From Thioalkalivibrio sp. XN8 (GTDB taxonomy: Bacteria; Pseudomonadota; Gammaproteobacteria; Steroidobacterales; XN24): a DNA stretch of 64,000 nucleotides. A program made the translations under genes and the position numbers. The stretch is taken from contig NZ_JAALFH010000050.1 of the NCBI RefSeq assembly GCF_011058255.1, positions 62,001-126,000 of the forward strand, written 5' to 3'. Under the pieces are notes generated by a model. That model had not been told where the DNA came from. It worked only from the letters and a program-made list of their open reading frames with translations, and searched no databases. The stretch's first letter is position 1; each line of letters begins with the position of its first letter. Shown in pieces: positions 58,914-64,000 of this stretch.

Positions 58914-59624
58914 ATGAGCGGTAGGGAGCATCTGGATGCATTGCGGCAGGACGCCGCCAGCGCCCCGGTCGTGCTGTTCGTCTCGCGCCTGACCGACGTG
59001 CGCGAGCTGCTGCGGCGGCTCGACGAGCTGGAGCTCCAGTACCGCATCGTCACGATGTCGATGCGCGACGGCGACGCGCGCACCCGCTTCCATGTGCTGG
59101 AGGAATGGACCGGCCACCATACGCTGCCGCAGGTCTTCCTCGACGGCCGCTTCATCGGCGGGCCGACCGAGCTGCTGGCTCATCCCCGGCTCGCCGGCGG
59201 CATCCCCCGCGCCGGCCAGTGGCTGGGCTACGCGGGCCTGGTGCCCTTCGTCGCGGCGCTGGCGGGCTTCTTGCTCAGCGACGCCGCCCGCCAGCAGTAC
59301 TTCGCCGAGCAGTTCCTGGCCTATGGCGCGGTCATCCTCTCCTTCGTCGGCGCGGTGCACTGGGGCCTGGCGCTGGCCACCGGACGGCTGCGGATCATGC
59401 GCCTGGCGCTGAGCATCCTGCCGGCGCTGCTCGCCTGGGCGGCCCTGCTGCTGCCGGCCGCGCCGGCGGCCTGGCTGCTGCTGCTCGGCTTTGCCGGCCT
59501 GCGGGCCTGGGAGGCGAGCGGGCCGGTGGCCGAGACCCTGCCGCCCTGGTACCGCCAGCTGCGCACCCGCCTGACCGGCGCCGTCGGCCTGCTCGTGCTG
59601 GTGTTCGCGCTGGCGGCCGCGTGA
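58914..59624 (+). CDS. Cysteine-free glutaredoxin-like domain fused to DUF3429
   Basis: A 236-residue protein. Residues 1-95 have a glutaredoxin fold signature: APVVLFVSRLTDVRELL (where CxxC/CxxS should be), LPQVFLDGRFIGGPTELL (the TVP and GG glutathione-binding motifs). There is no Cys anywhere in the protein, so it cannot do thiol redox chemistry. Residues 100-200 are DUF3429, a four-helix membrane domain (GYAGLVPFVAALAGFL, QFLAYGAVILSFVGAVHWGLAL). The Grx part may bind glutathione or act as a scaffold; this is inference. TATTAT about 40 bases upstream is a possible -10. Confidence 0.82.
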   Translation: MSGREHLDALRQDAASAPVVLFVSRLTDVRELLRRLDELELQYRIVTMSMRDGDARTRFHVLEEWTGHHTLPQVFLDGRFIGGPTELLAHPRLAGGIPRAGQWLGYAGLVPFVAALAGFLLSDAARQQYFAEQFLAYGAVILSFVGAVHWGLALATGRLRIMRLALSILPALLAWAALLLPAAPAAWLLLLGFAGLRAWEASGPVAETLPPWYRQLRTRLTGAVGLLVLVFALAAA

Positions 59625-59681: not shown

Positions 59682-61259
59682 ATGGCTGATGGGCTCGCTC
59701 CGGGGATGCTCGTGGAGGAATTCCCGGGGCGCGAGACGCCGCTCGAGATCTTTCCCGACGGTGCCACCGCCTTCATCGGCGCGGCGCGCCGCGGTCCGCT
59801 CGACACCGCCATCGCCGTCGACAGCCACGCCGCCTACGAGCGGATTTTCAGCATCGCCGGCGCCGAGTCCCCCCTCGATCGCTGCGTTGCCGATTTCTTC
59901 CATGCCGGCGGGCAGCGGGCCGTGGTCGTGCGCGTGGCCAACGAGGCGCGCGCGTGCACCATCCGGTTGCCGGGCAGCGAGGGCGTGCTGGTGCTGGAGG
60001 CGCTCAGCCCGGGCGACTCGGAGTACCTGCGCGCGTCCGTGGACTACGACCAGGTCGCGCCCTCCGACACGTTCACCTTCAACCTGGTGCTGCAGCGGCT
60101 CCGTGCGCCGGCCTCGGAGCGCGTGGTGGAGCAGGAGATCTATCCGCGGGTGTCGGTGCAGCCCGGGGCGGAGCGCTACGTCGCCGACGTGTTGCTGGAG
60201 TCCCGCCTGGTGCGGGCGCGCTTGCCCACCCCGCCGACCCGGCCGCGGCCGACCGTCAGTACCGCACCCGGCTATCCCGTGAGCTGGGCGGTGGCCGGGG
60301 ACGACGGCGCGGACGGGCGGGCGGTCACAGACTACGACCTGGTCGGCTCGTCCGCCCGCGGCACCGGGCTGTTCGCACTCGATGGCGCCGGGCCGCTCGA
60401 CTTCGTTTGCCTGCCGCCGGCGCCGGACGGGCGCGAGCCGGGGCCGGCGCTGCTGCTGGCGGCGCTGCGCTACTGCCGGCGCCGCCATGCCATGCTGCTG
60501 CTCGAGGCGCTCCCCGGCGCCAATGACGCAGACCAGGCGCTGGCTTGGCTGCACGGCCTGAACATCGCGGGCGAAAACGTCGCCGCCGTGTTTCCGCGGC
60601 TGGCGGGGCAGGGGAAAGCCAGGGAGCGCTCGGCCCTGGGCGCGGTCGCCGGGGCGCTGACGCGCACGACGACCGACGAGGAGCCGGCGCTGGGCAGCGG
60701 TTTCCGGCCCACGCACGAGCTGCCCGCTGCCCAGCAGCAGCGGCTGCTGGCCGCCGGGCTGAACCTGATCAGGCGCGGCCCGGGCGGCCGCGTCGTCGTC
60801 GCCGGCGGCCGCACCCTGGCTGCTGCCGACTGCCGCGTCCCGGCCTGGCGCTCCCTGGCGGCACGCCGGCTGGGCCTGATGATCGAGCGCACGGTGCTGC
60901 ACGGGACGCGCTGGGTCGTGTTCGAGCCCGCCGGGTCCGACCTCGTGGCGCGCCTGCGGACGCAGCTGGGCACCTGGTTCGAGTCGCTGCGTTTTGCCGG
61001 CCGCCTGGCCGGCGATCCCGGCGAGGCCTGGTTCGTGGACGTGGACGACGTGGCTGGTCCCGACCGGCGGTCGCGGGTCGAGTTCACCTTCGGCTTCGCG
61101 CCGCGCCGGCCGCGGGATTTCGTCATCTATCGCGTGGTCCAGGGCCTGGACGGCGGACGGCTGGCGCAGGTCTCGGCCGAGCGCTGGGCGATCGCGCGGC
61201 CGCGCTGCCAGGCGCCGCCGCCGGGCGCGCTGTCCCCGGGGACGCGGGAAGCCGGTTGA
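59682..61259 (+). CDS. Orphan phage tail sheath-like protein
   Basis: A 525-residue protein. The opening GMLVEEFPG and AFIGAARRGPLDTAIAV match the N-terminal strand and first domain of contractile tail sheath proteins. The C-terminal part LGLMIERTVLHGTRWVVFEPAGSDLVARLRTQ with AWFVDVDDV matches the sheath C-terminal domain. No tube, baseplate, spike or chaperone gene is nearby, so it is not part of a visible phage, R-pyocin, T6SS or eCIS cluster. ATG 59682 has GGAG seven bases upstream. The gene is coupled to the GGCT-like gene. Confidence 0.8.
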   Translation: MADGLAPGMLVEEFPGRETPLEIFPDGATAFIGAARRGPLDTAIAVDSHAAYERIFSIAGAESPLDRCVADFFHAGGQRAVVVRVANEARACTIRLPGSEGVLVLEALSPGDSEYLRASVDYDQVAPSDTFTFNLVLQRLRAPASERVVEQEIYPRVSVQPGAERYVADVLLESRLVRARLPTPPTRPRPTVSTAPGYPVSWAVAGDDGADGRAVTDYDLVGSSARGTGLFALDGAGPLDFVCLPPAPDGREPGPALLLAALRYCRRRHAMLLLEALPGANDADQALAWLHGLNIAGENVAAVFPRLAGQGKARERSALGAVAGALTRTTTDEEPALGSGFRPTHELPAAQQQRLLAAGLNLIRRGPGGRVVVAGGRTLAAADCRVPAWRSLAARRLGLMIERTVLHGTRWVVFEPAGSDLVARLRTQLGTWFESLRFAGRLAGDPGEAWFVDVDDVAGPDRRSRVEFTFGFAPRRPRDFVIYRVVQGLDGGRLAQVSAERWAIARPRCQAPPPGALSPGTREAG

Positions 61260-61786
61260 GCGGGGCGGAGGGGCACGTCCTCTTTTTCGCTTATGGCGCC
61301 AACGTGCATCCGGGCTGGCTGCGCCGGCGGGTGCCGGCGGCGCGACTGCAGGGTCCCGCCTTCCTGCCCGGCTATCGGCTGGCCTTCCGCAAGCGCGGGC
61401 GCGATGGCGCGGCCCGCTCGGACGCCTGCCCGAGCACGGAGCCCGGCGCCGCGCTGCCGGGCGCGCTGTACGAATTGCCCGCCGGGGCGCTGGAGCGCCT
61501 CGGGGCGGCGGGCGCCGGCTACGACGTGGACGAAGTGGAGGTGCTCACGGCGTCGGGGCCGCGCCGGGCCCTGGTCTTCCGCGCCGCGCCCGCGGAACTG
61601 GCCCCGGACCTGTTGCCCTGGGACTGGTACGTGGCGCTGATCCGGCGCGGCGCGGAATTGCTGGAGCTGCCGGCCGGCCACCAGCGCTGGCTGGCGTCGG
61701 TGCCGGTGCAGGTGGATGCGGACGAGGCCCGGTCGGGCGCGGCGCGGCGCGTGCTCGCCGCCGACGAGGCGGCGGAGCAAGGCTAG
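61256..61786 (+). CDS. Gamma-glutamylcyclotransferase-like protein
   Basis: A 176-residue protein with the GGCT/AIG2 opening FAYGANVHPGWLRRRVP (YGxN substrate loop) and LPGYRLAFRKRG, followed by GALYELPAGALERL. The acidic catalytic residue usually follows in the mid-region. GGCTs cyclise gamma-glutamyl groups to 5-oxoproline; whether this one does is unproven. It starts with TTG inside the sheath stop (TTGA) and overlaps the next convergent gene by four bases. The 5-oxoprolinase gene sits downstream. Confidence 0.78.
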   Translation: MSGAEGHVLFFAYGANVHPGWLRRRVPAARLQGPAFLPGYRLAFRKRGRDGAARSDACPSTEPGAALPGALYELPAGALERLGAAGAGYDVDEVEVLTASGPRRALVFRAAPAELAPDLLPWDWYVALIRRGAELLELPAGHQRWLASVPVQVDADEARSGAARRVLAADEAAEQG

Positions 61787-62138: not shown

Positions 62139-64000
62139 TCACGAACGGGGCGCGAAACCGCCGCCGCCCGGGGTCCGTATTTCCAGCTGGTCGCCGGGCT
62201 CCAGCATGGCGGCCGCGGTGCCGGCCAGCGTTTCCACCCGGCCGTCGCTCCGCAGGATCCGGTTGCGCCCCGGGGCGCCGTCCGCGCCGCCCGCCAGCCC
62301 GAAGGGCGCCACGACGCGGCGGTTGGCGATGATGGCTGCGGCCATGGGTTCGTTGAAACGCAGGCGGCGCACCACGCCGTCGCCGCCGTGCCAGCGGCCG
62401 GCGCCGCCCGAGCCCCGCCGCACGCCGAATTCTTCCACCCGCACCGGGTGGCGCAGCTCCAGGATCTCCGGGTCCGTTAGCCGGCTGTTGGTCATGTGGG
62501 TATGGACGGCGGAGGCGCCGTCGAAGCCGGGGCCTGCGCCCGCGCCGCCGCACAGCGTCTCGTAGTACTGGTGGCCGGCATTGCCGAAGCTCAGGTTGTT
62601 CATCGTCCCCTGGGAGGCGGCGACGACGCCCAGCGCCCCGAACAGCGCGTCCACCACGCACTGCGAGGTTTCCACGTTGCCGCCGGCGACCGCGGCGGGC
62701 CAGCCCGGGTTCAGCAGGCTGCCCGCCGGGATCACCAGCTCGAGCGGCTCCAGGCAGCCCTCGTTCAGCGGGATGTCGCGCCGGACCAGGCAGCGGAACA
62801 CGTACAGCACCGCCGCGCGACATACCGCCGCCGGGGCATTGAGGTTGCCGGCCGCCTGCGGCGAGGTGCCGCTGAAGTCGATCACTGCCCGGCGCCGCTG
62901 CCGGTCGATCCGGATCGCCACCCGCACCGTCTCGCCCCCGTCCATGCGCCAGCTGAACTCGCCGTCGGCCAGCGTGCCCAGGGCCTCGGCCACGGCCTCG
63001 GCCGCGTTGCGCTGGATGTGGCCCATGTAGGCGTTGACGACCTCGGCGCCGAACTCGGCCAGCATCTTCTCGAGCCCGGCGATCCCGCGCCGGTTGGCCG
63101 CCAGCTGCGCGCCGAGGTCGGCGAGGTTCTGGGCCGGGTTGCGCGCCGGCCAGCGGCCGCTGCCGAGCAACGCCAGCACCGCGGCCTCGTCCAGCCGTCC
63201 TCCGCGCACCAGCCGCTGGGCCCGGATGAGCACGCCTTCCTCGTCGACGTGCCGGCTGTCGGCCGGCATCGAGCCGGGCGTGCGACCGCCGATGTCGGCG
63301 TGGTGCGCCCGCGAGGCGACGTAGAGCGCGGGGCGGTCGCCGGCGCCGAAGAACGGCGTCACGACCGTGATGTCCGGCAGATGGGTGCCGCCCTCGTAGG
63401 GATCGTTCAGCACGAAGCTGTCCCCCGGCGCCATGTCGGCGGCGAAGCGCGCCATCACGGCGCGCACGCTCTCGCCCATGGAGCCCAGGTGCACCGGCAT
63501 GTGCGGCGCATTGGCGACCAGCCCGCCGGCCGGGTCGAACACCGCACAGGAGTAGTCCAGTCGCTCCTTGATGTTCACCGAGCTGGCGGTGTTCTGCAGC
63601 ACCGCGCCCATCTCCTCGGCGACATGCATGAAACGGTTGTTGAATACCTCCAGCAGGACTGGATCGACCCGCGTCGAAACCTTGCGTCGCGCCCGCCGGG
63701 CGGCGCGCTCGAGCAGCAGGTTGCCGTGCCGATCCACCCGGGCCTCCCAGCCCGGCGCGACCCAGGTCGTCGCGTTGCGTTCCGGCACCAGCGCGGGGCC
63801 CGGCAGGCGCTCGCCGGGCGCGAGCGTGCTGCGCGCCACCAGCGGCACGTCCTGCCAGCTGCCGCCGACCCAGGCGCGGCCGCTGCCGCGCGACCCGGCG
63901 GTGTCGGGCTCCGGGGCGCCTTCCGGCTCGCCGCCGCCGCCGCGGGCCTCCGCTTCCACCGACTCCAGCACCAGCGCCTGGGTGGGCACGAAGCCGAAGC
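62139..64000 (-). CDS. 5-oxoprolinase/hydantoinase (HyuA-HyuB fusion), 5' end outside the window
   Basis: About 620 residues are visible and the frame is still open at the window edge. The first 100 or so ([33 protein letters not shown] cut by a loop) are the end of a HyuA-like ATP-dependent half. From about 105 ([21 protein letters not shown]) a full HyuB domain follows, with [31 protein letters not shown] and the C-terminal [14 protein letters not shown]. The fused order is that of OPLAH-type 5-oxoprolinases of about 1200 residues, which convert 5-oxoproline to glutamate with ATP. Confidence 0.9.

Follow-up and report, generated by a model that had tools for sequence, protein, structure and literature searches.

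Why is a gene for a contractile sheath protein kept on its own among ordinary cellular genes? The question is raised by a locus near the end of the stretch of DNA that we analyzed (64,000 nucleotides of the Thioalkalivibrio sp. XN8 genome, hereafter the window), for which the original prediction had described a 525-residue sheath with both N- and C-terminal signatures, translationally coupled to a GGCT-like gene:

59682..61259, + strand: orphan sheath gene of the eCIS type, 525 aa, ATG start (profile, PDB and fold matches; orthologues).
61256..61786, + strand: GGCT/AIG2-like gene, 176 aa, whose TTG start lies in the sheath stop (TTGA) (ORF, profile).

The sheath ORF has an SD-like GGAG upstream, and the TTGA overlap with the second ORF was seen as predicted (61256, four bases).

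Judged from homology and predicted fold, the product of this gene is a full-length homologue of contractile sheaths. The window protein matched PHROG 23, "tail sheath" (E 5e-17, residues 5-444), and, when searched alone, gave weak matches below the cut-offs to Pfam DUF2586 and Phage_sheath_1C. A profile of its family searched against the PDB placed the Streptomyces coelicolor CIS sheath at the top (8bky/8bl4, E 7e-91, residues 1-506), followed by other eCIS, pyocin and phage sheaths. The AF2 model was built on a 12-row alignment, and its modest confidence (pLDDT 61) is due to the shallowness of that alignment; its top Foldseek and VIA matches were all sheaths, with VIA Z scores of 23.6 and 23.3 for the best (9gtp: Z 23.6, rmsd 3.9 Å, 318 residues aligned). 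The structure prediction, with sheaths only at the top, ruled against a non-sheath fold. No signal peptide was visible in the sequence and the product is probably cytoplasmic. A DGxDGxxLTDYD motif is conserved in the orphan sheath; because motifs like it occur in ordinary sheaths, its reading as a calcium loop was dropped.

Genome-wide profile searches of the window's own genome, which is 100% complete and has the sheath gene in single copy, identified no PF04984 (Phage_sheath_1) match, no T4-gp19-type tube gene, no Baseplate_J and no gp25-like protein. Among type VI markers the gp25 profile alone was searched, and the gp25/TssE family was absent from this genome. The original prediction had found no tube or baseplate gene near the sheath, and these searches extended that finding to the whole genome; a tail cluster elsewhere, named beforehand as the outcome that speaks against an orphan, was looked for and not found. 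The neighbors of the sampled orphan loci included no tail genes, and those identified were ordinary cellular genes.

The same picture was obtained across the orphan-bearing genomes. The tube family PF06841 was detected in 6 of 85 and, where both positions were listed, the tube gene and the orphan sheath sat on different contigs. Baseplate_J was found in one of 13 genomes and gp25 in one of 19. The reading most directly affected by these counts is that the orphan is a subunit of a scattered contractile system, with its tube and baseplate encoded elsewhere or too diverged to be recognized. Diverged genes can escape HMM searches, and a tube gene does occur in the six genomes above. However, the same tube model had a match in 6/6 genomes of other orders with a full-length sheath homologue, so the tube search works; baseplate and gp25 genes are missing too, the latter also from single-contig genomes, and constraint has been relaxed in the domain that meets the tube and the neighboring subunits (see below). 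We consider a scattered system improbable. As a separate observation, real CIS loci were also encountered in two members of the order, at L051:2758-9284 (genome G014) and L052:7687-13053 (G012), in which two sheath genes are interleaved with T4-gp19-type tube genes; G012 carries its two-sheath CIS locus as well as an orphan.

A sheath match was present in 232 of the 296 sampled genomes of the order and in 57 of 68 genera, nearly all with one copy; the 232 include a few other sheaths (e.g., in G014 and G021), such that the orphans proper number approximately 230. One genome, G643, had two orphan-type matches of near-equal score (C1:2004-3350 and C360:2719-4077), a case of either duplication or contamination (6%). 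In a phylum sample of 398 genomes there was no strong match beyond the window's own genome, and the three weaker matches were all outside the order. A scan of named genomes with the single window protein returned one relative, L054 (CP070671.1). The full-length homologues inspected outside the order but within the same class (L064-L071) had an adjoining tube gene and, where the contig extends, T4-type baseplate, Pvc16_N and eCIS_core genes too. These single-sheath eCIS operons, from other orders of the class, encode sheaths with ~30-37% identity to the orphans over most of their length. The source of the orphan sheath is an eCIS and not a phage tail in general.

In the sheath tree, seven of the eight families having at least two sampled members formed their own clades, a pattern that fits mostly vertical inheritance; the exception was family f4, which was split over two neighboring branches or mixed with f11. 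All orphans fell on one side of a branch whose support was low (15) because family f5 sits on a long branch, and with that support a single domestication event for all orphans is a tentative reading. A second, separate lone sheath was found in family f7 (L050:8188-9708; G026:C3:385205-386695), between acyltransferase and zinc-dehydrogenase genes in a genome without a T4-gp19 tube. It groups with the eCIS sheaths, and its placement among the orphans was rejected (AU p 0.0009); this case suggests that there may have been more than one orphaning event.

Nearly all orphan matches are intact open frames. Their dN/dS (NG86) was ~0.07-0.16 between closely related species and 0.12-0.30 between more distant ones, which are rough values since dS near 1 is saturated, and overlapped the range of the neighboring enzymes. 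Descent mostly along family lines, together with purifying selection, argues for an eCIS sheath that was domesticated long ago and is not in decay. A functionless remnant in slow decay would account for the loss of the rest of the machine and for a wall domain that evolves fast, but it is difficult to reconcile with frames intact nearly throughout, dN/dS well below 1, persistence in ~230 genomes and an outer domain under strong constraint, and we judge it very improbable. The original prediction of a "domesticated remnant" was therefore right in its first word and not in its second, given the purifying selection and the ~230 genomes, and its proposal of a sheath kept alone in a housekeeping setting was borne out by the machine-less genomes and the order-wide distribution.

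If the sheath has been domesticated, which of its parts are still maintained? Four parts of the protein are relevant here:

59682..59771, + strand: residues 1-30, N-terminal strand plus linker, part of the mesh in true sheaths; drifted in sequence.
59952..60221, + strand: residues 91-180, outer domain; among the slowest parts in orphans, the fastest in eCIS sheaths.
60582..61151, + strand: residues 301-490, C-terminal region of the wall and handshake; evolves slowly in eCIS sheaths and fastest of all in orphans.
61152..61256, + strand: residues 491-525, C-terminal extension past the end of eCIS sheaths (alignment, model).

In known sheaths the N-terminal arm and C-terminal parts knit the mesh and form the wall around the tube (PMC8195476, PMC10066040). 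The closest structural reference is Cis2, the sheath of the S. coelicolor cytoplasmic CIS (eCIS subtype IId, PDB 8bky/8bl4), whose wall is formed by domains 1 and 2 and whose domain 3 is a flexible surface element (PMC10066040). The orphan is homologous to Cis2 over its full length, is likewise a single-protein, three-domain sheath of ~530 aa, and aligns with it gap-free in the arm and linker, whereas Cis2 acts as one component of a full machine that also has a tube, a baseplate and a cap. Judged from the alignment and the model, residues 91-180 of the orphan would be the counterpart of the flexible domain 3.

Region tree lengths, computed within each group on fixed topologies, revealed opposite patterns. 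In the eCIS sheaths, a small comparison group (n = 14), the tree length was 2.41 for residues 301-490 versus 10.02 for residues 91-300; in the orphans the values were 24.68 and 15.69, respectively. The relative rate of the N-terminal arm rose from 0.14 in eCIS sheaths to 0.97 in orphans, that of residues 391-440 from 0.29 to 1.45 and that of residues 441-490 from 0.46 to 1.56, while that of residues 91-180 fell from 1.92 to 0.76. Six random subsets of 14 orphans all had middle/C-terminal ratios of 0.63-0.69, the window's own family alone had the same inverted rates, and a separate set of phage-like sheaths (n = 8) had the canonical direction (1.23 and 0.83). The L064-L071 sheaths, unlike the orphans, have a strongly constrained arm and C-terminal domain. 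Together, these comparisons of substitution rates showed that constraint in the orphans has shifted away from the parts used in contraction and onto the outer domain. Faster change of the C-terminal domain reflects relaxed or altered constraint, and is not by itself proof of a new function. We see about an even chance that the orphan sheath uses its outer domain as the working surface.

Some features of the arm have been kept despite its drift. Counted from G8 to A30, a segment that includes the linker (positions 21-25 of the Streptomyces sheath, PMC10066040), 32 of 35 orphans and all 14 eCIS sheaths have 23 residues. In the N-terminal strand, G8 is present in 34/35 orphans and I21 in 30/35, and positions 9 and 11 are hydrophobic. 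The arm may therefore still serve self-association, and the kept linker length and fold could also be those of a sheath-like assembly with an unrecognized tube. At the other end, at least 26 residues follow F480 in all orphan families except f5, compared with 15 in eCIS sheaths; the L064-L071 sheaths lack the extension. The model of the window protein has an extra predicted strand at residues 493-501, and the extension could cap the sheet or replace the strand of a neighboring subunit.

These features bear on the possibility that the orphan polymerizes by itself, with no tube, and that the resulting polysheath or filament has a cytoskeletal, storage or scaffolding function. Tube-free self-assembly is known for sheath proteins: gp053 of phage FV3 forms recombinant polysheaths (PMC6357053), and these resemble the orphan in being a sheath protein without a tube, although they are products of artificial overexpression of a phage protein that natively pairs with a tube. 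The N-terminal strand pattern, the exact linker length and the sheath fold kept in orphans are consistent with such a structure. Conversely, the mesh-forming arm and C-terminal domain have largely lost their sequence constraint, part of the arm is missing in families f3 and f6, and the extra C-terminal tail of most orphans could cap the strand-exchange edge. On balance a polysheath or filament seems rather unlikely. The more general supposition that the orphan still makes oligomers or tubes of some kind has somewhat better prospects, although we would not put them at even.

Decay of the same interfaces is relevant to the suggestion, made in the original prediction, of an anti-phage decoy. We considered this in the wider form of a decoy or dominant-negative protein that would poison the assembly of incoming phage tails or of an enemy eCIS. 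The sheath fold and the probably cytoplasmic location would suit this role, but the interfaces needed for joining a foreign sheath are exactly those that have decayed. In addition, the gene has a fixed housekeeping position and mostly vertical inheritance, and no defense genes were seen adjoining it. Nothing further favored a decoy, which we regard as exceedingly improbable.

Could the genes around the sheath indicate its role? Beyond the GGCT-like gene, the following features of the window are of interest:

58914..59624, + strand: glutaredoxin-like and DUF3429 fusion, 58 bp before the sheath; next to the orphan in f2 and in one genus of f1.
61502..61504, + strand: Gly83 codon of the GGCT-like protein, at the position of the Glu of LDRIEG (alignment).
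62139..63989, - strand: fused hydantoinase/5-oxoprolinase-family protein, convergent, cut by the window end (neighbor annotation).

The window GGCT-like protein scored 15.9 bits against a family cut-off of 22.8, compared with 36-45 bits for co-located GGCT homologues; the assignment is thus weak for the window protein itself but clear for these relatives, through which it can be recognized. G000, G001 and G002, the three species sampled from the window's genus, have Gly in place of the Glu of LDRIEG (LGAAG), whereas co-located homologues from other genera retain the Glu. We take this glutamate to be the catalytic residue of the GGCT family, and the window copy is expected to be inactive as a cyclotransferase. 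A GGCT gene lies directly downstream of the sheath, overlapping it or within ~60 bp, only in families f1 and f4 and in a single genome of f15. The adjacency described in the original prediction was thus found in these genomes, but the pair is not a conserved unit across relatives, and since most orphan loci are without a GGCT gene, it cannot account for a sheath conserved throughout the order. As a candidate for main sheath partner, AIG2/GGCT was demoted on account of its restriction to three families and the loss of the presumed catalytic Glu in the window's genus.

A convergent fused hydantoinase/oxoprolinase-family gene is near the orphan in seven families. The adjacent GGCT genes and this recurring neighbor would fit a sheath that acts in gamma-glutamyl/5-oxoproline metabolism, for example as a scaffold, together with the GGCT-like protein and the 5-oxoprolinase-family enzyme. 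However, the scarcity of GGCT beside the orphans, the altered Glu position in the window's genus and the location of the oxoprolinase-family gene on the opposite strand make such a partnership a poor prospect.

Upstream of the sheath and on the same strand, families f2, f3, f7, f11 and f15 have a paralogue of an LdtE-like L,D-transpeptidase (YkuD; among others L033:11111-12253, L047:9830-10885 and L054:6733-7911). In a 39-genome sample, 12 sheath-lacking genomes had at most one full-length LdtE-like copy. A functional link is doubtful because the sheath-linked paralogue is missing from the window's own genus, and the proximity may represent only a shared ancestral position. Gene order does indicate that the neighborhood of the orphan sheath is old.

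The explanation we favor is domestication. An ancestor of the order would have possessed an eCIS whose sheath consisted of one protein only; this machine would then have been lost and the sheath gene retained at one chromosomal neighborhood, from which it would have passed on largely vertically to become a core gene with a new role. Its product probably now neither wraps a tube nor contracts. We infer a static protein, possibly self-associating through its N-terminal strand and length-kept linker, with the former outer domain presented to a host partner. We are highly confident that the orphan sheath is domesticated and outside any contractile machine, and reasonably confident of the domestication account as a whole, the demonstrated part of which comprises the orphan state, the homology, the distribution, the purifying selection and the shift of constraint. 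More tentative, and somewhat short of an even chance in our estimation, is the specific proposal of an order-wide host protein that forms a static tubeless assembly or scaffold with the former surface domain as its functional part.

The domestication of whole tails is well known from R-tailocins, eCIS and T6SS. We found no description of a lone sheath kept across an order in the open-access literature, and to our knowledge a lone order-wide sheath with inverted constraint is undescribed so far. Encapsulins, which are domesticated phage capsid proteins, offer a comparison, in that one structural protein of a phage-like machine has been retained as a host gene; they differ in that encapsulins keep their assembly interface and have known cargo, whereas the assembly parts of the orphan sheath have drifted. 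If the proposal of a static tubeless assembly is correct, the orphan sheath would be the tail-side counterpart of what encapsulins are for phage capsids. The set of orphans would make it possible to study the tube-independent abilities of a sheath protein, and would help to separate the parts of a sheath that are needed for contraction from those needed only for folding.
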